Shown here in pieces: positions 48,922 through 63,613 of a stretch of 64,000 nt of DNA. This stretch comes from Acetothermia bacterium 64_32. GTDB lineage: Bacteria > Bipolaricaulota > Bipolaricaulia > Bipolaricaulales > Bipolaricaulaceae. Under the pieces are notes generated by a model. It was not told the origin of the DNA and did not search any database. It was given only the letters and a program-made list of their open reading frames with translations. The translations under genes and the position numbers were made by a program. Every line of letters begins with the position of its first letter. The first letter of the stretch is position 1. The DNA lies in assembly GCA_001508155.1 (NCBI GenBank), contig LGFI01000005.1, positions 1 through 64,000 of the forward strand. The letters run 5' to 3'.

Positions 48922-50317
48922 TCAAGTCCGAATTTTGGTGTAAATTCTCCTCTGGTAGATGATTGCTTTATTCTAAGCCACCTGAGAGCGCTTGGCGTCC
49001 TCTGCAGCCTTCACCCGCTTCACACTAGCCTTCCTCCATTCCCAGTACTCCGTCATGTCAAAGTAGCGGTGTCCGGTAGTCCAGGCTTCATCGATTTCTA
49101 TGAGGACTGCCCCGATCAAACGCAGTGCGGACTCTTCGTTGGGGAAGATCCGGATTACCCGTTCACGACGCCGGATCTCCTGGTTCAGCCGCTCTACACC
49201 GTTTGTGGTCCGCAAGCGCTTCCGATACCTCTCAGGCAGGGCCATTACTGCCATCGCGTCCTCAAAACCGGCTTCCAGTCGTTCGATTGCCTTAGGAGCC
49301 CGCTGGACGTAGTCCCGGATCACATCGTCCATAAGCCGGCGCGCCGTCGCCAGGTCCGGTGCGTCAAAGATCAACCGCAGCCGCCCGTGCAGTTCGCGCT
49401 GCAGAGACTTGGGGCAGGCATCCAGGATGTTGCGGACAAAATGCGTCTGGCAACGCTGCCACGTTGCCCCCTGAAAGTGGGTCTCCACGGCTTTCACCAG
49501 GCCTTTATGGTCATCAGAGACGACCAGGTCCACCCCGTGAAGCCCCCGCGCCTTGAGCCGGCCGAAGAATTCAGACCAGCTGGCCTCCGATTCGCTGTCG
49601 CCAATCATCAGCCCCAAAATCTCGCGGTAGCCCTCCCGGTTGATCCCAGTGGCGATCAGCGCACTGCAGAGCCGTACCCGGCCATCCTTCCGCACGCGGA
49701 GCACCAGGGCATCTACCAGCAGGAACGGGTATTCTTGATGAGCCAAGCTCCTCTCGTTCCATTCGTGGACTACGAGGTCCAGCCTCTTGCACAATTCCGA
49801 AACCGTGGACCGGGAGAATTCCGTCCCGCATAGCTCCTCCACAATGGCTCTAACCTTCCGGGTGGATACCCCGTTAATGACCATCTCTATCATGGCTAGA
49901 AGGAGCGCCTGCTCACTCCGCTGGTATCGTTCGAACAGGTCAGTGGAGAAATGTCCGCTGCGCAGTCGGGGAACCAGCAGGGTAAGTTCGCCCACCCGTG
50001 TCTTGAGCAGCTTCTCCCGGTGGCCATTCCGATAACCCTGTCTATCCGGTGTACGTTCATAAGGCGCCGCTTTCAGCTGCTCGGTGAGCTGGGCTTCGAG
50101 AATCTGGTTCACCACCTGCTCCACAAGCCGGGCCAGGCCATCATCCCGGACAAATAGGTGCTGCAAAATTTCGCTGTCTATGGTAACCTGGTATTGGGCC
50201 ATCCCTTGTCCCTCCTGGTGATGTTAGTTTGTGACTACCTTTACATCTACCAGAGGGAGGGTGGCCTTTCCTGCTTCAACGCCACTCCATTTTTACACCA
50301 TTATATCGGACACTACT
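48922..50317 (-). mobile_element. IS256-family insertion sequence
   Basis: About 1.4 kb with one transposase gene. Ends share inverted sequence: left gtccga-attt-tggtgtaaa (48926-48944), right, read inward on the minus strand, gtccga-tataa-tggtgtaaa (50311-50292); subterminal ctctggtagatg also occurs inverted (48950-48961 and 50247-50258). acttgcctgg flanks both sides (48912-48921 and 50318-50327) and may be the target duplication, a base or so longer than usual for IS256. The transposase frame is open, so the element looks recent. Confidence 0.85.
48973..50202 (-). CDS. IS256-family (mutator-type) transposase
   Basis: 409 aa, full length. DDE catalytic region: FLLVDALVLRVRKDGRVRLC (first Asp), GVDLVVSDDHKGLVKAVETH (second Asp) and RLNQEIRRRERVIRIFPNEE (Glu). 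N-terminal part has the usual YERTPDRQGYRNGHREKLL and LLVPRLRSGHFSTDLFERYQ. The C-x2-C-x22-H-type motif appears as CQTHFVRN. No stop or frameshift, so probably active. Base use is less GC-rich than neighbours, as expected for a mobile gene. Confidence 0.96.
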   Translation of the reverse strand: MAQYQVTIDSEILQHLFVRDDGLARLVEQVVNQILEAQLTEQLKAAPYERTPDRQGYRNGHREKLLKTRVGELTLLVPRLRSGHFSTDLFERYQRSEQALLLAMIEMVINGVSTRKVRAIVEELCGTEFSRSTVSELCKRLDLVVHEWNERSLAHQEYPFLLVDALVLRVRKDGRVRLCSALIATGINREGYREILGLMIGDSESEASWSEFFGRLKARGLHGVDLVVSDDHKGLVKAVETHFQGATWQRCQTHFVRNILDACPKSLQRELHGRLRLIFDAPDLATARRLMDDVIRDYVQRAPKAIERLEAGFEDAMAVMALPERYRKRLRTTNGVERLNQEIRRRERVIRIFPNEESALRLIGAVLIEIDEAWTTGHRYFDMTEYWEWRKASVKRVKAAEDAKRSQVA

Positions 50318-51049: not shown

Positions 51050-51066
51050 TTATCTTGCCTCAGCTT

Positions 51067-51084
51067 CTTTATAGTGCTATAAAG
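51067..51084. promoter_or_regulatory. 18-bp perfect palindrome upstream of pit
   Basis: ctttatag-tg-ctataaag, 18 bp after the tRNA and 19 bp before the pit ATG. AT-rich, unlike its surroundings; a likely operator, or a hairpin in the leader. It includes TATAGT-like -10 sequence on both strands. Confidence 0.5.
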
Positions 51085-51102
51085 CAGCCTATAGGAGCAC
51101 AT

Positions 51103-52041
51103 ATGTGGACGATCATCCCGGCGGTGCTGATGGGTTGGTCGCTGGGGGCCAACGATGCGGCCAACGTGTTCGGGCTTGGGGTGGGGGTGCGGGCGGTGCG
51201 GTACTGGGTGGCCGTGGGGCTCACCGCGGCCTTCTCCCTCCTGGGGGCTTTTCTGGGAGGGGCGCGGGGCATGGCCACCTACAGTTCCGTGGCCGCCCAG
51301 AGCATGGCAAGTTCGTTCTGTGTGGCCCTGGCCGCCGGGCTCACCGTGGCGCTCATGACCTGGCGGGGCTTGCCGGTTTCCACCACCCAGGCTGCGGTGG
51401 GGGCGATCATCGGGGTGGCCCTGGTGACGGGGCGGGCTGTGGACTGGGGGGTGCTGGGGCGCATCGCCCTTTCCTGGGTCGCTTCCCCGGTGGGCGCCAT
51501 GATCCTCGCCTACCTGCTCCACCGGTTCTTAAGCCCCCTCCTTGAGGCCAAGCTCCGGGGCCTGGTGCTGTATGACCGGGTCATCCGGCTGGGGATCGTG
51601 GCGGTGGGGATCTGGGGTGCCTATGCCCTGGGGGCGAACAACGTGGCCAACGTGACCGGGGTGTACGTAGGGGCTGGAGTCGTCTCGATCCCGGTGGCCA
51701 CGCTGATCGGGGGGGGGAGCATCGCCCTGGGGGTGATCACCTTCTCCCGCCGGGTTATGGAAACGGTGGGGGAGAGGCTCGTGCCCCTGGGCCCCCTTCC
51801 GGCGCTGTTGGCGGTGGCCGCCCAGGCCGCCTCCTTGCAGGTGTTCGCCGTCCTGGGGGTGCCGGTGTCGGCTTCTCAGGCCGTGGTGGGGGCGGTGGTG
51901 GGGATCGGCCTGGTGAAGGGGGTGCGCACGGTGAACCGACGCCAGCTTTTTGCGATCGTCGCCGGCTGGGTCCTCACCCCGGCCCTGGCCGGGCTGGTGG
52001 GCGCCCTGTTTTGGCTGGCCTTCGGCCCCCTGCTCGGTTGA
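51103..52041 (+). CDS. pit: PiT-family inorganic phosphate permease
   Basis: 312 aa, about ten helices. The duplicated PiT signature occurs in both halves: GWSLGANDAANVFGLGVGV (about 11-29) and GAYALGANNVANVTGVYVG. Other blocks: GLPVSTTQAAVGAIIGVALV and GVPVSASQAVVGAVVGIGLV. Carries phosphate with H+ or Na+. No cytoplasmic central loop, as in archaeal/bacterial short forms. Start ATG 51103 after taggag; the longer frame overlaps the tRNA spacer. Confidence 0.93.
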   Translation: MWTIIPAVLMGWSLGANDAANVFGLGVGVRAVRYWVAVGLTAAFSLLGAFLGGARGMATYSSVAAQSMASSFCVALAAGLTVALMTWRGLPVSTTQAAVGAIIGVALVTGRAVDWGVLGRIALSWVASPVGAMILAYLLHRFLSPLLEAKLRGLVLYDRVIRLGIVAVGIWGAYALGANNVANVTGVYVGAGVVSIPVATLIGGGSIALGVITFSRRVMETVGERLVPLGPLPALLAVAAQAASLQVFAVLGVPVSASQAVVGAVVGIGLVKGVRTVNRRQLFAIVAGWVLTPALAGLVGALFWLAFGPLLG

Positions 52042-53005: not shown

Positions 53006-53698
53006 ATGGAGAAAAGGCCAACTCAGGTGCTCTCTTTCGTCGTTGGGGCCATAGCCTCTGGCGAGTACGGGGTGGGGGATCGCCTCCCCACAGAACGGGA
53101 GCTAGCCGAGCTATGTGGAGTAAGCCGTTCTTCGGTGCGCGAGGCCTTGAGCATCCTGAGCGCCCTCAACATCGTGGACCGGCGCGTGGGGAACGGCACG
53201 TATGTGCGTACTTCCGATGAGACGATCCTTACCCTGGCCCTGGAGCTTGCCCAAAGCGAGGGAACCCTCAAGGAGACCTTCGAGCTCCAGAGGATCTTGG
53301 AGGTAGGCGTAGTGGAGCTCGCCGCCCGCAAGATGGCCCCAGGGAAGCTTGTCCCCATAGAGCAAGCGTTCGAGGAAATGGAGCGGGCTTGTGTCGAAAG
53401 CGATATCGAGGCATATTTTGCCGGGGACCGAAAGTTCCACCTTGCGGTGGCCCGGGCCACGGGCAATGCCCTGCTAGAGCAAAACGTGCTTGGCTTACTC
53501 CAGCGGATGGACCAACCGCTTTGGCGGTCGGTCAAAAGGTACTTCATAAACCGCAGCAGCGAGTACCTCAAGCGCTCGCTTCTCGACCACCAGCGGCTCC
53601 TCCAAGCGCTGCGGGTTCGGGATACGGCCCTGGCAAGGAGGGTCATGGAAGACCACTTCGAGCGCATCGAGCAGGAGATCTTCGATGCTGAGGAATAA
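53006..53698 (+). CDS. GntR family regulator, FCD subfamily
   Basis: 230 aa. N-terminal winged helix: VGAIASGEYGVGDRLPTERE and AELCGVSRSSVREALSILSA. C-terminal all-helical FCD ligand domain (about 80-225) with metal ligands in AYFAGDRKFHLAVARATGNA, SLLDHQRLLQALRVRD and VMEDHFERIE. FCD regulators respond to small organic acids (lactate, pyruvate, gluconate-type). It heads a seven-gene overlapping operon, so its effector is probably the transported or produced acid, e.g. a glycerate derivative. Confidence 0.92.
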   Translation: MEKRPTQVLSFVVGAIASGEYGVGDRLPTERELAELCGVSRSSVREALSILSALNIVDRRVGNGTYVRTSDETILTLALELAQSEGTLKETFELQRILEVGVVELAARKMAPGKLVPIEQAFEEMERACVESDIEAYFAGDRKFHLAVARATGNALLEQNVLGLLQRMDQPLWRSVKRYFINRSSEYLKRSLLDHQRLLQALRVRDTALARRVMEDHFERIEQEIFDAEE

Positions 53699-54572
53699 TC
53701 TGGAACCCTCGCGGCCGCTTCTTGCCCTCTCATCCCGCCTTCTATGGTCCCATCCGGTTGTGAAAGCAGCCGAGATCGCAAGCGACCTTGGGTTTCAAGG
53801 GCTTGAGCTGTGGACAGAGCACCTATGGCGAGAGGGCCCACCAAGCGGGCTTGAGGGGAAACTCGCTCGGCTTCCCCTCCGCTATTTTCTGCACGGTCCC
53901 TTCATGGACCTCAACCCTTGTTCCCGCAACCCCCGGGTTGCCAAGCTCTCCCTTACCGAACAGCTTAAGGCGCTGGAGCTGGCACGGGGGTTGGGGATTG
54001 ACCTTGTGGTCGTCCACCCTGGCCGCTGTTCTTCCAGCAAGGACCCCCCGGAGGAATACTGGCCCGCGTTGCTCGAGTCCTTGGGGCTCTTGGCAAGGAG
54101 GGCCAGGGGGTTTGGGATCACCCTGGCAGTGGAGAACATGGAGCCCCGTCCCAAAGAAATATTGGTCCGACCAATTGATTTGGAGAGGCTTTTCGGGGAG
54201 ATCTCAAGCCTCGGTTTGTGTCTTGACCTTGCCCATGCGGCGGTGGGGGGACTGGGGATGGTGGAAGAGTTCTTAGCCCGTTTAGGAAGTCGCATCCGCC
54301 ACGTTCACATAAGCAATGTTGGGGATGGCAAGGTACACTTGCCTTTGGATAAAGGGAGACTTCCCCTCACGCCGGCCGCGCTCGACTTCCTCCGGGAATT
54401 CCGTGGCGCCCTGACCCTGGAGGGGGCGTGGGAGCCGGGCGAGCAAGTGGCGAGGCTGGGGCTGACGAAGCTGCGGGGACTGCTTGAAGGGGGTGATAGC
54501 AGGGAGAAGCTAGCACCATCTGTAGATAACACAAACAAATCACAAGGAGGATCAAATGAGAAAGCTGACTAG
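53685..54572 (+). CDS. Sugar-phosphate isomerase/epimerase-like TIM barrel
   Basis: 295 aa, xylose-isomerase-like fold. Site strands: PLRYFLHGPFMDLNP (His), DLVVVHPGRCSSS (His), ITLAVENMEPRP (Glu), LCLDLAHAAVG (Asp, His), IRHVHISNVGDGKVHLPLDK (His, Asp/His) and LTLEGAWEPG (Glu). The C-terminal 20 residues are hydrophilic and unlike the family, perhaps due to overlap with the binding-protein gene. ATG overlaps the GntR stop by 14 bp. A GntR-type operator copy lies inside the gene at 54161-54175. Confidence 0.83.
   Translation: MLRNNLEPSRPLLALSSRLLWSHPVVKAAEIASDLGFQGLELWTEHLWREGPPSGLEGKLARLPLRYFLHGPFMDLNPCSRNPRVAKLSLTEQLKALELARGLGIDLVVVHPGRCSSSKDPPEEYWPALLESLGLLARRARGFGITLAVENMEPRPKEILVRPIDLERLFGEISSLGLCLDLAHAAVGGLGMVEEFLARLGSRIRHVHISNVGDGKVHLPLDKGRLPLTPAALDFLREFRGALTLEGAWEPGEQVARLGLTKLRGLLEGGDSREKLAPSVDNTNKSQGGSNEKAD
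54161..54175. promoter_or_regulatory. Second, perfect GntR-type operator inside the isomerase gene
   Basis: attggt-ccg-accaat: a perfect 6-3-6 inverted repeat, same architecture as attggt-cag-tccaat at 52975-52989. It may allow repression by looping or roadblock, about 1.2 kb downstream of the promoter. Confidence 0.55.
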
Positions 54573-55542
54573 CTCATTACTGGTGGCAGTGCTGGCAGGG
54601 CTGATTGCGCTCCCGGCGCTGGCCGAAAAAGAGACGCTGATGGTTTACACCTCCTGTCCCATCGAGATCATGACCGAGATCGAGCGGGTCTTCGAGGCGG
54701 CCCACCCAGAAATAGACGTACAGGTTTATCGCTCGGGCACGGGCACCATCACCGCCAAGATAGCCGCGGAAAGGGAGGCTGGCAAAATCCTGGCCGACAT
54801 CGTTTGGGTGGCTGATTACGCCTACTTCGAAGGCCTGAAGGGACTCGACCTCTTGTACCCCTATGAGTCACCCGAGGCCAAAAACCTCCCGGAGATATTC
54901 GTCGACCCGGATAGGTGCTACTATGGGGCACGGATCTTCAGCATGGTGATCGCTTACAACACGCTTTTGGTGGACGATCCCCCGCGCCGGTGGACAGATC
55001 TCCTGGACCCGAAGTGGCGGGGGCAGCTCGTGACGGGCAATCCCCAGTACTCCGGCTCCAATGTGGTGGCCACCACCGCCCTGTGCCTGGAGTATGGCCT
55101 CTCTTACCTAAAAGGGCTCAGGGAGAACGAGATCGCCGTGGTCAGGGGGAACAGCCAGGCGGCGGCGGAGATCGCTGCCGGTGCTTACATGGTGGGGTTT
55201 ACGCTGGACAACATAGCCAGGGGCATGAAGGCCCAGGGGAGCCCGATAGATCTCGTATACCCGGAGGACGGGGCCGTGTTCTTGCCCAGCCCGATCGCCA
55301 TCATCAAGACAAGCGAACACATAGAGGCAGCGAAGACCTTCGTGGATTTCGTGCTCTCACCGGCCGGGCAAGAGGCCTTGGTCGAGTACGGCTCCTATAT
55401 CCCGGCACGCCCTGACGTCGCCCCGCCGCCGGACACCCCCACCGTTGATCAGATCCACGTTATGGACCTCCCGCTTTCCTTCCTCATGGCGAACAAGGAC
55501 TTCTACACCGACCAGTTCATAAAGCTCTTGCTGGAGGAGTGA
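54556..55542 (+). CDS. ABC transporter substrate-binding protein, AfuA/ferric-type family
   Basis: 328 aa. Signal peptide KLTSSLLVAVLAGLIALPALA. Core: LMVYTSCPIEIMTEIERVFE, HPEIDVQVYRSGTGTITAKI, ADIVWVADYAYFEGLKGLDL, RWTDLLDPKWRGQLVTGNPQ, FLPSPIAIIKTSEHIEAAKT. The pattern VYRSGTGTI plus AYMVGFTLDNIARG is like phosphonate/sugar-phosphate binders (AfuA, PhnS) and lacks the FbpA iron Tyr pair. A phosphorylated small molecule is the likely ligand. Overlaps the isomerase by 17 bp; followed by a stem-loop. Confidence 0.85.
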   Translation: MRKLTSSLLVAVLAGLIALPALAEKETLMVYTSCPIEIMTEIERVFEAAHPEIDVQVYRSGTGTITAKIAAEREAGKILADIVWVADYAYFEGLKGLDLLYPYESPEAKNLPEIFVDPDRCYYGARIFSMVIAYNTLLVDDPPRRWTDLLDPKWRGQLVTGNPQYSGSNVVATTALCLEYGLSYLKGLRENEIAVVRGNSQAAAEIAAGAYMVGFTLDNIARGMKAQGSPIDLVYPEDGAVFLPSPIAIIKTSEHIEAAKTFVDFVLSPAGQEALVEYGSYIPARPDVAPPPDTPTVDQIHVMDLPLSFLMANKDFYTDQFIKLLLEE

Positions 55543-55596: not shown

Positions 55597-57276
55597 ATGA
55601 AAACGATGCTGAAGCCTCGCCAGATGATCTTCCTGGTCGCCGTGCTCCTTTTGCTCTTTTTGGTGGCGCTACCCCTTTCGCTCCTTTTCTTCAAGAGCTT
55701 TGTGCGGGATGGGGTCTTGACCATGGCCAACTACGTCGAGGTTTTTTCAGAGCCCAAGAACTACGCGCCGCTTTGGAACACGGTGAAACTCGGCCTTTGG
55801 ACCGTGCTTTTGGCCACTGCCCTGGGGCTTCCACTCGGGTGGCTGGTGGCGAGGACGGATCTTCCGGGCAGAAGGTGGCTTGAGACGCTCTGTCTTCTGC
55901 CCTACATGCTCCCCCCTTTTATCGGGGCCATCGCCTGGACCCAGCTCCTTGCCCCGCGGGTCGGGTACCTCAACAAGCTTTGGACGATGATCACCGGCTT
56001 GCGAAGCTCCCTTTTCAATATCTACAGCTTCGAAGGCATAGTTTGGGTGCTCGGCATGTACACCTTCCCCTTCGTCTTCCTCACAGTTCGGGGGGCTTTG
56101 GAGAGGATGAACCCTTCTTTGGAGGAGGTGGCCAGGATATCCGGCGCCGGGAAGCTCCGCGTCCTCAAGGACATCACGATCCCCCTGGTCATGCCGAGCA
56201 TCCTGGCCGGGATGATCCTTTCCTTTCTCTACTCCATCTCGAATTTCGGGGTTCCCGCCCTGATCGGGATGCGGGCGAGGGTGTTCGTGATCACAACACA
56301 GATCTTCAGGTACATATATCAGCGTGCGGATTTCTCAGGGATTCGGCTTGCCACGGCCCTTTCCGTGCTCCTTGTGGGCGTGGCAGGGTTGGTTTTGGCA
56401 CTAAACCGATGGGTTCTGAGCCGACAACACGGGGCGGCCATCATCTCCGGAAAGAGCGTGCGGCCCACCATAGTGGAGCTGGGGCGCTGGAGGCACCCGA
56501 TCGCCGTGGGCGTACATCTCCTCATGGCCTTTCTGGTCTTGGCGCCCTTGGTCTCAGTGCTTTTGAGCTCTTTCCTCAAGGCCTGGGGGCTCCCCATCCG
56601 GTGGGAGAACCTCACCTTCAGGAACTACGCGTACATATTGTTTGACTACGATCTGACCAAAAGGGCTATCCTGAACAGTCTGCTCCTTGCCGTGTCCGCA
56701 GCTACGGTCACCACGCTGGTCGGGGGGATCCTGGCCTACATCACCACCAAGACCAGGATCAAAGGGAGGCAGGCCTTGGACTTCCTCAGCACTCTGCCCC
56801 ACTCCATCCCGGGGACGGTGGTGGCGCTCGCCATGATCCTGGCCTGGTCGGGGCAGTTCAAGATCAACCTGTACAACACCTTCTGGATCATCCTCGTGGC
56901 CTACATCACCCGGTACCTTTTCTACAGTTTCCGTAACATCTCCGCCGCGCTGGTCCAGATCCATCCTTCCCTGGAAGAAGCAGCCCGGATCTCCGGGGCG
57001 GGCTGGCTCCAAAACTTCCGGGACATAGTGGTGCCCCTCATAAAGCCCGGGCTCATCGCTGGCTGGCTCCTTGTATTCATGCCCACCTTAAGGGAGCTCA
57101 CCGTCTCAATCCTCCTTTACGGGCCCAAGACCCCTACCATCAGCGTGGCGGTGTTCGAACTGCAAGACGCCGGCTATTACCACATAGCGGCCGCCCTTTC
57201 GGTGATCATCGTGGCGGTGCTTCTTGTCTGCAATTACGTGGCCAGGAAGCTCATAGGTTTGGGGGTCCGAGCCTGA
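55597..57276 (+). CDS. ABC transporter permease, fused two-domain (AfuB/FbpB type)
   Basis: 559 aa, about 12 helices in two permease halves. First half: MIFLVAVLLLLFLVALPLSL, LPYMLPPFIGAIAWTQLLAP, EAA loop EVARISGAGKLRVLKDITIP. Second half: HLLMAFLVLAPLVSVLLSSF, LPHSIPGTVVALAMILAWSG, EAA loop EAARISGAGWLQNFRDIVVP. ATG 55597 has aaagggggaaa upstream; the longer frame to 55549 runs through the stem-loop. Followed after 10 bp by its ATPase. Confidence 0.92.
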   Translation: MKTMLKPRQMIFLVAVLLLLFLVALPLSLLFFKSFVRDGVLTMANYVEVFSEPKNYAPLWNTVKLGLWTVLLATALGLPLGWLVARTDLPGRRWLETLCLLPYMLPPFIGAIAWTQLLAPRVGYLNKLWTMITGLRSSLFNIYSFEGIVWVLGMYTFPFVFLTVRGALERMNPSLEEVARISGAGKLRVLKDITIPLVMPSILAGMILSFLYSISNFGVPALIGMRARVFVITTQIFRYIYQRADFSGIRLATALSVLLVGVAGLVLALNRWVLSRQHGAAIISGKSVRPTIVELGRWRHPIAVGVHLLMAFLVLAPLVSVLLSSFLKAWGLPIRWENLTFRNYAYILFDYDLTKRAILNSLLLAVSAATVTTLVGGILAYITTKTRIKGRQALDFLSTLPHSIPGTVVALAMILAWSGQFKINLYNTFWIILVAYITRYLFYSFRNISAALVQIHPSLEEAARISGAGWLQNFRDIVVPLIKPGLIAGWLLVFMPTLRELTVSILLYGPKTPTISVAVFELQDAGYYHIAAALSVIIVAVLLVCNYVARKLIGLGVRA

Positions 57277-57286
57277 AGGAGGGGAT

Positions 57287-58384
57287 ATGGGGGCCATAGC
57301 TTTACGCAACGTGGTAAAGGAGTTCGGGGAAGTGCGGGCGGTGGACGGGGTCAGCATGGAGATAGCCGACGGGGAGATCGTATGTCTCTTGGGGCCCTCC
57401 GGCTGTGGGAAGACCACTACCCTCCGGATGATCGCTGGGTTCGAGCGCCCTACCGCCGGCGAGATCTACATAGAGGACCGACTCGTCTCCTCAGAGAAGT
57501 ACCTCGTCCCCCCGGAGCAGCGCAATCTGGGGATGGTGTTTCAAAACTACGCCGTTTGGCCACATATGACGGTGTTCGACAACGTGGCCTACCCGCTCAA
57601 GCTGCGCAAGGTTCCTAGGCCAAAGCTTCGGGAGAAGGTGCTTGAGACCCTGGAGATGGTGGGGCTTACGGGCCTCGAGAAGCGTTACCCAGAGCAACTC
57701 TCCGGGGGCCAGCAGCAGCGGGTTGCCCTGGCCCGCGCCCTGGTGGTGGAGCCGGTGGCCATGCTCTTGGACGAACCCCTCTCGAACCTGGATGCAAAGC
57801 TCAGGGAGAAAATGCGCTTCGAGCTCATGGACCTGCATCGCAGGACCAAGATCACGGTTATCTACGTTACACATGACCAAGCTGAGGCCATGGTGCTCTC
57901 AGACCGGATCGTGGTGATGCACAGGGGCAAGATCGTTCAGATCGGGTCCCCGGTCCAGATATATCAGGAGCCGGCAAACGCCTTTGTCGCCGACTTCATC
58001 GGCCTGGCCAACTTCGCCCCCGCCAGACTGGTAGAGGTCAAACAAGGGCATGGGGTTGCGGAGCTTTTCGCCGGCAGGGGGTTGCGCTTGACCTGTCGGG
58101 TGCCGGCCTTGCAGCGTGGGGGCAAAGCGCAAGACAAAGGGCTCCTGTTCGTCCGCCCCGAGGACATCCAGCTCGTCCCCGAGGGGGAGGGGGAACTCGC
58201 CGGGGTGGTGGTCCGGCGCACTTTCTTGGGGGACAGGCTGGACTTCCGGGTGGAGGCAGAGGGGATGGAGTGGCGTGTGGAAACGGGCCCCGATGTCAAG
58301 TTCGATGAAGGCGCCAGGGTGGGCCTTGCAATTAAAAGGGCCGTCTTCCTGGCCGGAGAGGAGGACCATGACTCGAGCCTCTGA
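57287..58384 (+). CDS. ABC transporter ATP-binding protein (AfuC/FbpC type)
   Basis: 365-aa ATPase of this importer. Walker A LLGPSGCGKTTTLRMIAG, Q-loop VFQNYAVWPHMTV, signature LSGGQQQRVALARAL, Walker B AMLLDEPLSNLDAKL, H-loop VIYVTHDQAEAM, then a TOBE domain with LFVRPEDIQLVP. Strongly similar to the ATPase at 33927, so the two importers are related systems. Overlaps the cPGS gene by 17 bp. Confidence 0.94.
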   Translation: MGAIALRNVVKEFGEVRAVDGVSMEIADGEIVCLLGPSGCGKTTTLRMIAGFERPTAGEIYIEDRLVSSEKYLVPPEQRNLGMVFQNYAVWPHMTVFDNVAYPLKLRKVPRPKLREKVLETLEMVGLTGLEKRYPEQLSGGQQQRVALARALVVEPVAMLLDEPLSNLDAKLREKMRFELMDLHRRTKITVIYVTHDQAEAMVLSDRIVVMHRGKIVQIGSPVQIYQEPANAFVADFIGLANFAPARLVEVKQGHGVAELFAGRGLRLTCRVPALQRGGKAQDKGLLFVRPEDIQLVPEGEGELAGVVVRRTFLGDRLDFRVEAEGMEWRVETGPDVKFDEGARVGLAIKRAVFLAGEEDHDSSL

Positions 58385-59717
58385 AAATCCAAGGGCGATT
58401 GCGTTGATAGATGGGGAGCACTACCTGCCCGTCCTCAAATGGGCCTTGGATGGCTTGAGGGCCTCATATCAGCTGGTTGGGGCCGTCTTCTTGGGGGGGA
58501 CGGAGAAGATCGGCTCTGAGGAGGACCTAAAGGCGCTTGGGGTGCCCGTGATCTACGGAAAGCCCATCCCCCAGGCCCTGCGCGAGGCGGTGGAGCTCTT
58601 CGCTCCTGAGGTGGCAGTGGACCTGTCGGATGAGCCGGTGGTGGGCTACCGGGAGCGGTTTCAGATAGCGAGCCTCCTCCTCTCCTGGGGGGTGCGCTAC
58701 GTGGGCCAGGACTTCGCCTTCACCCCACCGCGCAGGGTGCCCACAGCCCTTCCCGCCATCGGGGTGGCCGGGACCGGAAAACGCACGGGAAAGACCGCCG
58801 TATGCGGTTACGCGGCCCGGGTACTGAAGAAAAGCTGGCGGGTGGGGATCGTGACCATGGGTCGCGGTGGCCCTGAGGAGCCGGAGGTGCTTCACGGGGG
58901 TGAGATGGAGCTCACCCCCGAAGCCCTGGTCAAGCTCGCCGACCAGGGCCGCCACGCCGCCTCCGACCACTTCGAGGACGCCCTCATGGCCCGCGTGCTC
59001 ACCGTCGGCTGCCGCCGCTGCGGCGGTGGGATGAGCGGGGGGGCCCCGTTCTTCAGCAACGTGGAGGCCGGGGCCAAGCTGGCGGAGGGCTTCGGGCTGG
59101 ACCTTGTGCTGCTTGAGGGGAGCGGCAGCACCGCCGCCCCAATCAAAGTGGACCGCCAGATCCTCATCGTGGGTGCTCATCAGCCCCTTGATTACATCCG
59201 AGGATACTTCGGCCCCTACCGCATCCTGCAAAGCCACCTGGTGGTGCTCACGGGCTGCGAGCCGCCCCTGGCAGACGAGGAGAAGGTGGAGGCGATGGAG
59301 GCCGCCGTGCGGGAGGTGAATCCCGAAATCCCGGTGATCCGGACGGTGTTCCGCCCCCGGCCCCTGGAGCCCGTAGAGGGGGCGAAGGTCTTCCTTGCCA
59401 CCACCGCCCCCAAGGGGATCCTGCCCGTTTTGGCTGACTACCTGGAAGGACACTATCGCTGCCGGGTGGTGGGGGCCTCGCCCCACCTATCAAAGAGGCC
59501 GAAGCTGAGGGAGGATTTGGCCTCGGCCCCGGACTTCGACGTGTTGCTCGTGGAGCTAAAGGCCGCCGGGGTGGACGTGGGGGCGCGGCTTGCCCTGCAA
59601 GGGGGGCGGAAGGTGGTGTTCGTGGACAACGAACCGGTAGGGGAACTCGATCGCCACCTTTATCGCCTGGCCGAGGAGGCGATCCGGGAAAAGAAGGGCG
59701 GTGCGGCCCATGGCTGA
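58368..59717 (+). CDS. cpgS: Cyclic 2,3-diphosphoglycerate synthetase
   Basis: 449 aa, matching cPGS of Methanothermus fervidus in size and start. cPGS uses ATP to close 2,3-diphosphoglycerate into cyclic 2,3-DPG, a thermoprotectant and phosphate store of thermophilic methanogens. Landmarks: IALIDGEHYLPVLKWALDGL near the N-terminus, AVFLGGTEKI, VAVDLSDEPVVGYRERF, a P-loop-like GVAGTGKRTGKTAVCGYAAR, TMGRGGPEEPEV, DHFEDALMARVLTVGCRRCG, VLLEGSGSTAAPI and NEPVGELDRHL. Sits between a transporter and a phosphoglycerate mutase gene, overlapping both. No 2-phosphoglycerate kinase is in the window. Rare in bacteria, so likely ancient transfer from or with archaea. Confidence 0.88.
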   Translation: MTRASENPRAIALIDGEHYLPVLKWALDGLRASYQLVGAVFLGGTEKIGSEEDLKALGVPVIYGKPIPQALREAVELFAPEVAVDLSDEPVVGYRERFQIASLLLSWGVRYVGQDFAFTPPRRVPTALPAIGVAGTGKRTGKTAVCGYAARVLKKSWRVGIVTMGRGGPEEPEVLHGGEMELTPEALVKLADQGRHAASDHFEDALMARVLTVGCRRCGGGMSGGAPFFSNVEAGAKLAEGFGLDLVLLEGSGSTAAPIKVDRQILIVGAHQPLDYIRGYFGPYRILQSHLVVLTGCEPPLADEEKVEAMEAAVREVNPEIPVIRTVFRPRPLEPVEGAKVFLATTAPKGILPVLADYLEGHYRCRVVGASPHLSKRPKLREDLASAPDFDVLLVELKAAGVDVGARLALQGGRKVVFVDNEPVGELDRHLYRLAEEAIREKKGGAAHG

Positions 59718-61281
59718 AGCGAGCCAGGGCCTCCGGAGCGTGGAGCTCATGGCCGAACGGGTGGAGGCCCTCTACGAGGAGGGCCACACCGACTATTGGC
59801 TTCCCGCGTTGGTCCTCACCGGCCCCCAGGGCCCCATCGGTCGGGTCCGGGCCGGGGATTCCTTGATCTTCTGCTGCCGTCGGGGGGAGCGGGAGATCCA
59901 GCTCACCCGGGCCTTTGTGGATGAGGAATTCACAGAGTTCCCCCGCCGGCGCCTCGAGCCCCTCACCTTCGTCCCCCTTACCCTCTATCATCCGGACTTC
60001 AGGCACCTTCCGGTGGCCTTCGCCCCCCAGCGCCTGGATGACACCCTGGGGGAGGTGATAAGCAGACAAGGTCGCGCGCAACTTCGCCTGGCGGAGAAGG
60101 AGAAGTATGCTCACGTTACTTATTTCTTCAGCGGCGGCCGCACCGAGCCCTTCCCGGGCGAGGTGGATCGGGGGGTTCCCTCATTCCTGGATGATCCCCC
60201 ACGGGCGCTCCCGCTTCTCCTTTCCGCCCTGGAGGAGGAGCTCTCCCTGAGGCCGACCCTGGCGGTGGTGAACGTGGCCACCGGGGACATCATGGGCCAC
60301 TACGCGGAGCTCGGGCCCAAGGTCCGCTGTGCGGAGGAGGTGGACCGGGCCCTGGGGGCGATCCTCAAGCTCGCCGAGAAAAACGGCTACTGGACGGCCG
60401 TAACCGCGGACCACGGCCTCCTTGAGGACCACGGGCCGAAAGGTGGTCCCCCCAACGTAAGCCACACCACCAATCTGGTCCCCTTCCTCCTTTTGGGCCC
60501 GCGCGGGGAAAGCCTAGATCTCGCTAAGGAAGGGATCCTGGGGGACGTTGCCCCCACCATCCTACAACTCCTTGACATACCCCGGCCGGCGGCCATGACC
60601 GGCCGCTCCCTCCTTTTAGAAAGGGTTCCGAGGGCTGACAGGGTGCTGCTTGTGATCCTGGACGGTTGGGGGCTGGGTAAGGCGGGGCATGTGAACCCGA
60701 TAGAGCTGGCACGAACCCCCAACTGGGACGAACTTTCCCAGCGGCCCATGGTACAGCTTGCGGCCTCCGGCGAGGCGGTGGGGCTGCTTTCTGGCCGCAA
60801 GGGGAACTCCGAGGCAGGGCACATGAACCTCGGTGCGGGTAGGGTCGTCCCCCAGGATGAGGTGAGAATCAAGCAAGCAATCGAGACGGGCAACTTCTCG
60901 GAAAACCCGGCCTTCCATCTGGCCATCGAGGACGCCCGAGCACGAGTCGGGGCACTCCACCTGTTGGGGCTGCTCTCGGAGAAAAGCTCCCACGGATCGA
61001 TGGAATACGTGCTGGAGCTCCTTAAGCTGGCGCGCAGGAAAGGTTGCCTGCGGGTCTTCGTGCACCTCATCACCGACGGCCGCAGCACCCAGCCGGGCAG
61101 CGCCCCTGCCCTTCTGCGAGGGTTCGGCAAGGAGATGGAACGGATCGGAGTGGGGACCCTCGTCACCTTGGTGGGGCGGGGGCTGGCCCTGGACCGGGGG
61201 GGCGACTATGTAGGTAAGACCAGGAAGGCATATCGAGCATTGGTCTTAGGGGAAGGGATTCCGGTACCCTTAGATAACTAG
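59710..61281 (+). CDS. gpmI: Circularly permuted cofactor-independent phosphoglycerate mutase (GpmI family)
   Basis: 523 aa, about normal GpmI length, but the two parts are swapped. Residues 12-302 match the C-terminal part: GHTDYWLPALV, GDSLIFCCRRGEREIQLTRA, DTLGEVISRQGRAQLRLAEK, EKYAHVTYFFSGGRTEPFPG, VTADHG, SHTTNLVPF, MTGRSLL. Residues 311-515 match the N-terminal part: RVLLVILDGWGLGKAG, RKGNSEAGHMNLGAGRVVPQ, LHLLGLLSEKSSHGS, VTLVGRGLALDRG, KAYRALVLGEG. Metal ligands are all kept: Asp193, His197, His252 and Asp318, Ser367 (phospho-Ser), Asp234, His235. His123 is kept (His428), but Asp154 is Ser459 (DGRSTQP for DGRDTPP). Interconverts 3- and 2-phosphoglycerate or a related reaction. ATG overlaps cPGS by 8 bp. 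Confidence 0.92.
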   Translation: MAEASQGLRSVELMAERVEALYEEGHTDYWLPALVLTGPQGPIGRVRAGDSLIFCCRRGEREIQLTRAFVDEEFTEFPRRRLEPLTFVPLTLYHPDFRHLPVAFAPQRLDDTLGEVISRQGRAQLRLAEKEKYAHVTYFFSGGRTEPFPGEVDRGVPSFLDDPPRALPLLLSALEEELSLRPTLAVVNVATGDIMGHYAELGPKVRCAEEVDRALGAILKLAEKNGYWTAVTADHGLLEDHGPKGGPPNVSHTTNLVPFLLLGPRGESLDLAKEGILGDVAPTILQLLDIPRPAAMTGRSLLLERVPRADRVLLVILDGWGLGKAGHVNPIELARTPNWDELSQRPMVQLAASGEAVGLLSGRKGNSEAGHMNLGAGRVVPQDEVRIKQAIETGNFSENPAFHLAIEDARARVGALHLLGLLSEKSSHGSMEYVLELLKLARRKGCLRVFVHLITDGRSTQPGSAPALLRGFGKEMERIGVGTLVTLVGRGLALDRGGDYVGKTRKAYRALVLGEGIPVPLDN

Positions 61282-61333: not shown

Positions 61334-63613
61334 TCAAGCCCCTTCTTCCACGAACCCGATCTGGCGGGAGGCCTTCCTGAGGTCCCGCGCCAGCTTGCGA
61401 TAGTGCTCCTCCAGGTCTGCCGTCACCGAGGGCTGGGTCTTTTTCAGGGCCTCCAGGAAGTGGCGCCGCTCCACCCGCTTCGCCCCCAGGTCCTCCCTCA
61501 GGGCGAGCCGGCCCGCCTTGCGGCACACCTCGGCGATGTCCGCCCCAGAATACCCCTTGGTCAGCCTGGCCAGCTCCTCAAGGTCCACGTCATCCGCCAG
61601 GGCCATCCCCCGGGTATGGACCTTGAAGATCGCCAGCCGCGCCCCCTCGTCCGGCACCGGGACGTAGATGAGCTCGTCGAACCTCCCCGGCCTAAGCAGC
61701 GCCGGGTCGATGATGTCCGGCCGGTTGGTGGCCCCGATCACCACCACCCCCCTGAGCTCCTCCAGGCCATCGAGCTCGGCAAGGAGCTGGTTCACGATCC
61801 TCTCGGTGGCATGCGGCTCGCCGGCCGCCGTGCCGCGCCGGGGGGCCAGGGAATCGAGCTCGTCCAGGAAGATCACCGCCGGGGCCACCTGCCGCGCCCT
61901 CCGGAACACCTCCGCCACCCGCTGCTCGGACTCTCCATACCACTTAGAGAGGAGCTCGGAGCCCTTGGCGGAGATGAAGTTGGCCGAGGACTCATTGGCC
62001 ACCGCTTTCGCAAGCAGGGTCTTCCCGGTACCCGGCGGCCCGTAAAGCAGGATCCCCTTGGGCGGGGTCACCCCCAGCCGGCGGAAGGCCTCCGGGGCCT
62101 TGAGCGGAAGCTCCACCGCCTCCCTTAGGAGCTGCTTCACCTCCTCCAAGCCCCCGATGTCCTCCCATGTGACTTTTGGAATCTCAAAAAGCACCTCCCG
62201 CATCGCCGAGGGGCGCACTTCCTTTAAGGCCTGGTCGAAGTCCTCCCTCTTTACGATGAGCTCGTCCAGGACCTCCTTGGGGATGCCCTCTTTCTCCAGG
62301 TCTATCTTGGGGAGCACCCTCCTTAGGGCGTTCATGGCCGCCTCGCGCGTCAGGGCCTCGATGTCCGAGCCCACAAACCCGTGGGTGAGCTCGGCGTACT
62401 CCTCCAGGTCCACATCCTGTGCCAGGGGCATCCCCCGGGTGTGGATCATGAAGATCTCCTTGCGCCCTTCCCGGTCCGGCACCCTGACCTCGATCTCCCG
62501 GTCGAAGCGCCCGGGCCGCCGGAGGGCCGGATCGATGGCCTCTATCCGGTTGGTGGCCCCGATCACGATCACGTTCCGCCGCTCTTTGAGTCCGTCCATC
62601 AGGGTGAGGAGCTGGGCCACCACCCGCCGCTCCACCTCCCCGGTCACCTCGGCCCTCTTGGGGGCGATGGAATCGAGCTCATCGATGAAGATGATGGCCG
62701 GGGCGTTCTTCTCGGCCTCCTCGAAGATCTCCCTCAGGCGCTTTTCGGACTCCCCATAATAGCGGGACATGATCTCCGGCCCGGACAGGGCGATGAAGTG
62801 GGCGTCGGTCTCGTGGGCCACCGCCTTGGCGAGCAAGGTCTTCCCCGTCCCAGGGGGGCCATAGAGCAGCACCCCCTTGGGGGGCTCGATCCCAAGGCGC
62901 GCAAAAAGCTCCGGCTTTTTCAAGGGGAGCTCCACCATCTCCCGGATCTTCTGGATCACGTCCTTAAGGCCCCCGATGTCCTCGTAGGTGACCTCGGGGA
63001 TCTCCCGGCCCCGCTCCTCGGCCTCCACGTACTCGGGCAAAAGCTCGATCTCGGTGTTCGGGGTGATGCGCACCAGGCCCTTGGGGCTGGTGCGCACCAC
63101 CTTCAGCCGGATCTCCCCCAGTCCGAACGCCCCCGACTCGAAGAATTCCCGGAAGATCCGCTCGGTGAGGAGTTCCCCCCCAAAGGGCGACCCCGGGGGC
63201 CGGGCGGCGGTGGTGGACACGGCATCCCCCGTCTTCACCACCCGCCCAAGGAGGATCTGCCTGAGGCTGTCCGGGGAGGCCACAAGGCGAATCCCCCGCC
63301 GCGCCGGGGCCAGGGTCACATGGGCCGCCTCCTGCCAGGAGGCCTTCCTCACCTCCGCCGTGTCCCCGATCCCTATCTCCGCGTTGGAGCGGATGAGCCC
63401 GTCTATGCGGATGATGTCCAGCCCCTCATCCGGCGGGTAGGCGGGAGCGGCGATGGCCCCGGTGGTGCGGTGTCCCTTGATCTCGATGGGTTCCCCCGGG
63501 GCTACCCCCAGCGTCGCCATGTGCTGGGAGCTGATCCGGGCGATGCCCTTCCCCACGTCCTGCTGATGGGCCTCGGCCACCTTCAGCCTGAGGCCTTCTT
63601 TCTGATCCCCCAT
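61334..63613 (-). CDS. CDC48/VCP/VAT-type double AAA ATPase
   Basis: 759 aa, the length of archaeal VAT. N-domain (1-190) with double-psi barrel [20 protein letters not shown] and [14 protein letters not shown], then a beta-clam part. Two AAA modules follow: D1 with Walker [13 protein letters not shown] (252-263), Walker [15 protein letters not shown] and Arg finger region [10 protein letters not shown]2 with [20 protein letters not shown], pore loop [20 protein letters not shown] and [15 protein letters not shown]. Ends in a charged tail without the HbYX proteasome motif. An ATP-driven unfoldase rare in bacteria; likely acquired from archaea. ATG with gaggtgaacc. Confidence 0.95.

Follow-up and report, generated by a model that had tools for sequence, protein, structure and literature searches.

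The gene at positions 59710-61281 on the + strand of the window (the whole 64,000-nucleotide stretch of the Acetothermia bacterium 64_32 genome analyzed here) encodes a circularly permuted protein of the iPGM type of phosphoglycerate mutase (PGM), referred to below as cpPGM. Its substrate pocket is remodeled: Asp154 has been lost from all permuted proteins, and Phe260 is replaced by Arg in the subfamily to which cpPGM belongs. The permuted iPGM-type family is ancient, has a single origin and extends across several phyla, gut and hot-spring lineages among them. Given that the pocket change accompanies the swap of the two parts of the chain, the enzyme has probably taken on a new role in place of the textbook one; cpPGM most likely serves organophosphate salvage as a phosphoserine phosphotransferase or phosphatase, and 2,3-bisphosphoglycerate is a possible substrate in this host.

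The single open frame runs from an ATG at 59710 to a stop codon at 61279-61281 and specifies 523 amino acids. In GpmI, the start of the phosphatase domain is followed by the transferase insert and then by the rest of the phosphatase domain, whereas in cpPGM the halves are swapped. The first part (residues 12-303; 59743-60618, + strand) corresponds to the old C-terminal part, residues 218-510 of the iPGM structure 1ejj, and contains the remainder of the transferase domain followed by most of the phosphatase domain. A linker of about eight residues (304-311, LERVPRAD; 60619-60642, + strand) joins the old C terminus to the old N terminus. The second part (residues 312-517; 60643-61260, + strand) corresponds to residues 6-211 of 1ejj and contains the start of the phosphatase domain, with the phosphoserine S367, and the first part of the transferase domain. 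A phmmer search of solved structures aligned residues 312-517 with 6-211, and residues 16-303 with 218-510, of the B. stearothermophilus iPGM (1ejj). The Pfam families iPGM_N and Metalloenzyme each matched two stretches of cpPGM, with iPGM_N profile positions 1-129 at 60868-61257 and 128-216 at 59725-59991, that is, in reversed order within one frame. These matches bear out the first-pass annotation, in which a C-terminal part (about 12-302) preceded an N-terminal part (about 311-515). The alignment to 1ejj also agrees with the proposed eight-residue join after MTGRSLL, which reads MTGRSLL-LERVPRAD-RVLLVILDGWG, and with the proposed new ends, GEG... and ...GHTDYWLPALV. In the permuted proteins, both new ends lie within a single transferase-domain segment, at about 211-218 of 1ejj.

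Further evidence for the permutation was obtained by rotating cpPGM at every position and scoring it against an HMM built from 31 canonical iPGMs. The native sequence matched as two domains, of 218.3 bits (profile 220-508 at residues 13-302) and 192.8 bits (profile 9-216 at residues 310-517). By contrast, a single collinear iPGM domain of 414 bits was recovered, among the 522 rotations scored, only at rotations of ~300-313, as expected from the permuted order put forward initially. An AlphaFold2 model with 56 permuted sequences as input had a pLDDT of 94.8 and a pTM of 0.90. When this model was submitted to Foldseek, solved iPGMs ranked first; the alignments spanned ~275-300 columns, the coverage expected when a permuted chain is aligned sequentially. 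The first-pass annotation knew of no described permuted iPGM, and a literature search likewise returned no relevant description; the word "permuted" is absent from a 2010 survey of bacterial PGMs (PMC2964296).

Proteins with the same order, full length and with 61-70% identity, are present in six other genomes of the family of the host, and relatives from another family of its class retain the canonical iPGM order. Among 84,980 species genomes scanned, full-length permuted matches were present at 80 or more loci. At least 83 distinct sequences have the permuted order; they come from Bipolaricaulota, Chloroflexota and Clostridia, and a sister subgroup adds to them. The matches listed also included one Actinomycetes MAG and one Thorarchaeota-labeled MAG. 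The gene occurs in the isolate Levilinea saccharolytica (Chloroflexota; NZ_LGCM01000037.1) and in the single-contig chromosome record CP070811.1. Although the window genome is fragmented (33 contigs), which would be compatible with an assembly error, a chimera or a pseudogene, identical order, breakpoints and intact frames recur across many independent assemblies, including that of the isolate. Such an origin is therefore exceedingly improbable, and an assembly artifact or a pair of separate genes is ruled out by these independent copies. A match across the junction on a Bradyrhizobium plasmid was rejected as a truncated remnant that lacks an annotated gene.

A second, more divergent permuted subgroup (permB, as distinct from the main group, permA) came to light when the class to which the Levilinea genome belongs, within the Chloroflexota, was searched. 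Its loci (L231-L242, in genomes G146, G133, G141, G227, G150, G130, G177 and G182) encode YN or YD at the FCC position, and GRRG replaces DGRD. A histidine-phosphatase-like gene adjoins the permB gene twice, and no HAD neighbors were seen in permB neighborhoods. In maximum-likelihood trees, the permuted proteins formed one clade with support of 100/100, and a joint clade with support of 100/99 when both subgroups were included. Given that the permuted proteins are monophyletic and share the same breakpoints, one permutation event suffices. The most plausible route to the permutation is a tandem duplication followed by fusion and trimming; since no intermediate was found, fission followed by re-fusion may have been the route instead. 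In a profile search of 100 Bipolaricaulota and 150 Chloroflexota genomes for a pre-swap ancestor, a canonical-order protein with a permuted-type pocket, all two-piece matches scored about like canonical iPGMs.

In its catalytic apparatus, cpPGM closely resembles GpmI (TIGR01307; 1ejj/1o98), with which it shares the two domains, the two-metal site, the phosphoserine and most substrate-contact residues; canonical GpmI-type relatives in the same class are ~38-44% identical to it in each half. The metal-site residues D318, S367, D193, H197, D234, H235 and H252 are equivalent to D12, S62, D403, H407, D444, H445 and H462 of 1ejj, confirming the proposal that seven metal ligands, including the phosphoserine, align in the permuted order. 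Also retained are H123, R153, R185, R191, R261, R264 and K336 (1ejj numbering). The substrate-contact set of GpmI is, however, incomplete. Asp154, which we take to contact substrate in iPGM (1ejj), is present in 31 of 31 canonical proteins but is replaced by Ser in permA (Ser459 in cpPGM) and by Gly in permB, and Phe260 has become Arg57 in cpPGM; neither change was noted in the first-pass annotation. At twelve alignment columns, the permuted and the canonical groups are each at least 90% conserved, but for different residues. Among them, the substitutions V122S, S124G, H128Y, D154S, N259C, F260R, D263E, A265E and M189L separate 83/83 permuted from 19/19 canonical sequences, with the qualification that FCCRRGER was one of the two patterns used to find the permuted loci, so that the search itself partly accounts for the conservation of C56, R57 and E60 among these sequences; columns outside both patterns are unaffected. 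Most of the group-specific pocket changes fall within a few residues of substrate contacts, and five of them (V122S, S124G, M189L, D263E and A265E) are common to permA and permB. Given that both subgroups are permuted and both lack Asp154, the change of order and the loss of this residue lie on the same branch. For this reason, this natural permutation, which was fixed a single time in an enzyme of textbook central metabolism and is now spread across phyla, offers a clean case in which to ask whether permutation can accompany or trigger new function.

Several of these features would suit an ordinary 3-PG/2-PG mutase, that is, a GpmI isozyme with changed order. All the metal ligands, S62 and the seven further residues named above are kept, the model is iPGM-like and of high confidence, and TIGR01307 was matched with 398 bits against a cut-off of 330.65, as two pieces in swapped order. 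On the sequences compared, this reading is nevertheless rather unlikely, given the loss of Asp154 from every permuted protein and its retention in every canonical one. For the NF003897 (PRK05434) equivalog, whose cut-off is 862 bits, the score was only 295, a shortfall to which the permutation itself contributes. A further objection comes from the complement of PGMs in the same genomes. The window genome carries a full apgM gene (C27:25280-26458), which rules out cpPGM as the sole PGM of the cell, and another intact PGM (apgM, canonical iPGM or dPGM) was detected in 27 of the 30 permuted-bearing genomes tested: 25 with a full canonical iPGM or apgM and two with dPGM. Among the other three, a partial apgM is present in one, and no other PGM was detected in two MAGs, as an ordinary mutase would allow. 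In permB, apgM is present in 8/8 genomes, split in one. Because a further PGM is nearly always present in the host, the cpPGM gene is accessory, and in this, as in its gene neighbors and several other pocket residues, it differs from GpmI. The archaeal-type apgM (TIGR00306), which adjoins the permuted gene in most Chloroflexota and is a frequent neighbor overall, belongs to the same superfamily and probably serves these cells as their glycolytic PGM; it is, by contrast, ~400 amino acids long and unpermuted, and cpPGM scores only 22 bits against TIGR00306. Of the first-pass description, a permuted GpmI phosphoglycerate mutase, the permutation of an iPGM-type protein therefore stands, while the GpmI function and label are doubtful, Asp154 being lost and another PGM nearly always present. 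The pocket changes could, against the salvage reading, merely retune a PGM. The combined data suggest that many genomes, among them those of gut Clostridia, carry a likely non-PGM that TIGR01307 labels as a PGM.

In Bipolaricaulota, the cpPGM gene closes an operon that includes an ABC importer of the organophosphate/phosphonate type, and a cyclic 2,3-diphosphoglycerate synthetase gene (cPGS, also cDPGS) usually precedes it. In the window, the operon lies on the + strand and several gene ends overlap. It comprises, in order, a GntR-family protein with an FCD domain, the probable operon regulator, which heads the operon in other genomes too (53006-53698); a xylose-isomerase-like TIM barrel (AP_endonuc_2) with weak likeness to the phosphodiesterase CbiR (53685-54572); a PhnS2-like substrate-binding protein (54556-55542), among whose nearest solved structures are a pyridoxal-phosphate binder and proteins of the Fe3+ type; a PhnU2-like fused permease (55597-57276; TIGR03262, 214 bits, below cut-off); an ATPase of the 2-aminoethylphosphonate/Fe/polyamine type that is conserved in the operon (57287-58384; TIGR03265, 370 bits, below cut-off); cPGS (58368-59717); and cpPGM, whose start is overlapped by the cPGS stop. 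In the general order of this operon, the TIM barrel is an optional member. The substrate-binding protein, permease and ATPase are of the same broad class as the PhnSTU2 and P5PA-type importers of 2-aminoethylphosphonate and organophosphates, but every component falls below the family cut-offs. A PHO4-family phosphate/sulfate permease (51055-52041) lies shortly upstream of the operon, and a transposase-like frame (48973-50202, - strand), of the IS256/Mutator type by eye, lies ~3 kb upstream. A CDC48-family AAA ATPase (61334-63613, - strand; TIGR01243, 1083 bits), here in a bacterium, is convergent to the cpPGM gene.

The cPGS gene starts at the ATG at 58368; searches were begun one codon later, at 58371. 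The protein matched the structures 8ork and 8oru with an E-value of 3e-126 (residues 5-427 for 8ork) and 9sxb with 5e-122. It retains the Walker A sequence GTGKRTGKT and the motifs GGTEK, GTGKR-GKT, ASDH-EDALM and ELKAA that bind 2,3-DPG and ATP, the substrate and nucleotide contacts being those described for cDPG synthetase (PMC10690619). The cPGS gene stands immediately upstream of cpPGM in about 10 genomes. An invariable link between the two genes was rejected: among the loci examined outside Bipolaricaulota, cPGS was absent except from one Thorarchaeota-labeled MAG, and one locus (L112) has the same operon with only cPGS missing. On this evidence, there is no basis for naming 2,3-DPG as substrate of the family as a whole. 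The contig of the Thorarchaeota-labeled MAG (L113) carries the importer-cPGS-cpPGM operon at 57-65% identity, through either lateral transfer or a binning error.

The salvage reading can be set out as a putative mechanism. As in iPGM and alkaline phosphatase, the serine, placed between two Mn-type ions, would take up the phosphate of the substrate and pass it on to an acceptor or to water. The substrate would differ from that of iPGM and would probably be a more highly charged phosphorylated acid. The enzyme would then perform the last cytoplasmic step of organophosphate uptake and salvage operons; that its phosphoserine chemistry is directed at an organophosphate brought in by the neighboring ABC system is an evenly balanced judgment. 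In this genome, the likeliest substrate would be 2,3-bisphosphoglycerate, the compound handled by the adjoining cPGS, although action on 2,3-DPG here is a possibility of lesser weight. The apgM enzyme and lower glycolysis would then use the products. Tentatively, the permuted proteins may constitute a new enzyme family in which permutation and Asp154 loss go with a putative bisphosphorylated or other organophosphate substrate, and which in Bipolaricaulota may take part in cDPG/2,3-DPG metabolism with cPGS and the importer. To our knowledge, such metabolism has no earlier description in bacteria, and the host operon raises a testable case for it.

The opposite direction of flow also has to be considered. 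cDPG has been described as limited to hyperthermophilic methanogens, in which 2-phosphoglycerate kinase (2PGK) makes 2,3-DPG (PMC10690619). Like the methanogen pathway of 2PGK and cDPGS (PMC10690619, PMC12136491), the window operon has a cDPGS with substrate-binding motifs, but it has a permuted iPGM and an ABC importer in place of 2PGK, and its host is bacterial. Thus, cpPGM might supply 2,3-bisphosphoglycerate for the thermoprotectant cyclic 2,3-diphosphoglycerate, replacing 2PGK, with the phosphoserine relaying phosphate donated by either 1,3-bisphosphoglycerate or a second phosphoglycerate molecule. The position of cPGS directly upstream and its intact motifs would be consistent with this, as would an acid lost and an Arg gained in the pocket, which fit a bisphosphate. 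A profile search with NF003259, which we take to represent 2PGK (PRK04220), gave no match in the window genome (92% complete), no convincing one in the other genomes with both cpPGM and cPGS, and a convincing match only in the sole class member with cPGS but without cpPGM; this absence is soft because MAGs are incomplete. The importer and the FCD-type GntR regulator, however, look catabolic, the family mostly occurs without cPGS, and L112 has the operon without it. Given these observations, a supply role is unlikely, and organophosphate salvage is preferred.

Outside Bipolaricaulota, the permuted gene comes after HAD phosphatase genes. Such genes, in tandem, flank it at 46/46 Clostridia and 23/24 Chloroflexota loci. 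Its partners in Chloroflexota are apgM and a PRK-family kinase, and in Clostridia LacI and PfkB. Several clusters of opposite-strand frames were disregarded as antisense shadows. At one Bipolaricaulota locus, a gene resembling phosphonopyruvate hydrolase or PEP mutase (L105:4547-5512; TIGR02321, 315 bits, below cut-off) directly separates the ABC importer from the permuted gene. One Lachnospiraceae locus (L180:9660-10943) and four related ones have, downstream of the permuted gene, a gene resembling that of phosphoglycerate kinase (340 bits for its best NCBIfam match, whose cut-off is 883), accompanied by inositol catabolism genes (IolG/IolE).
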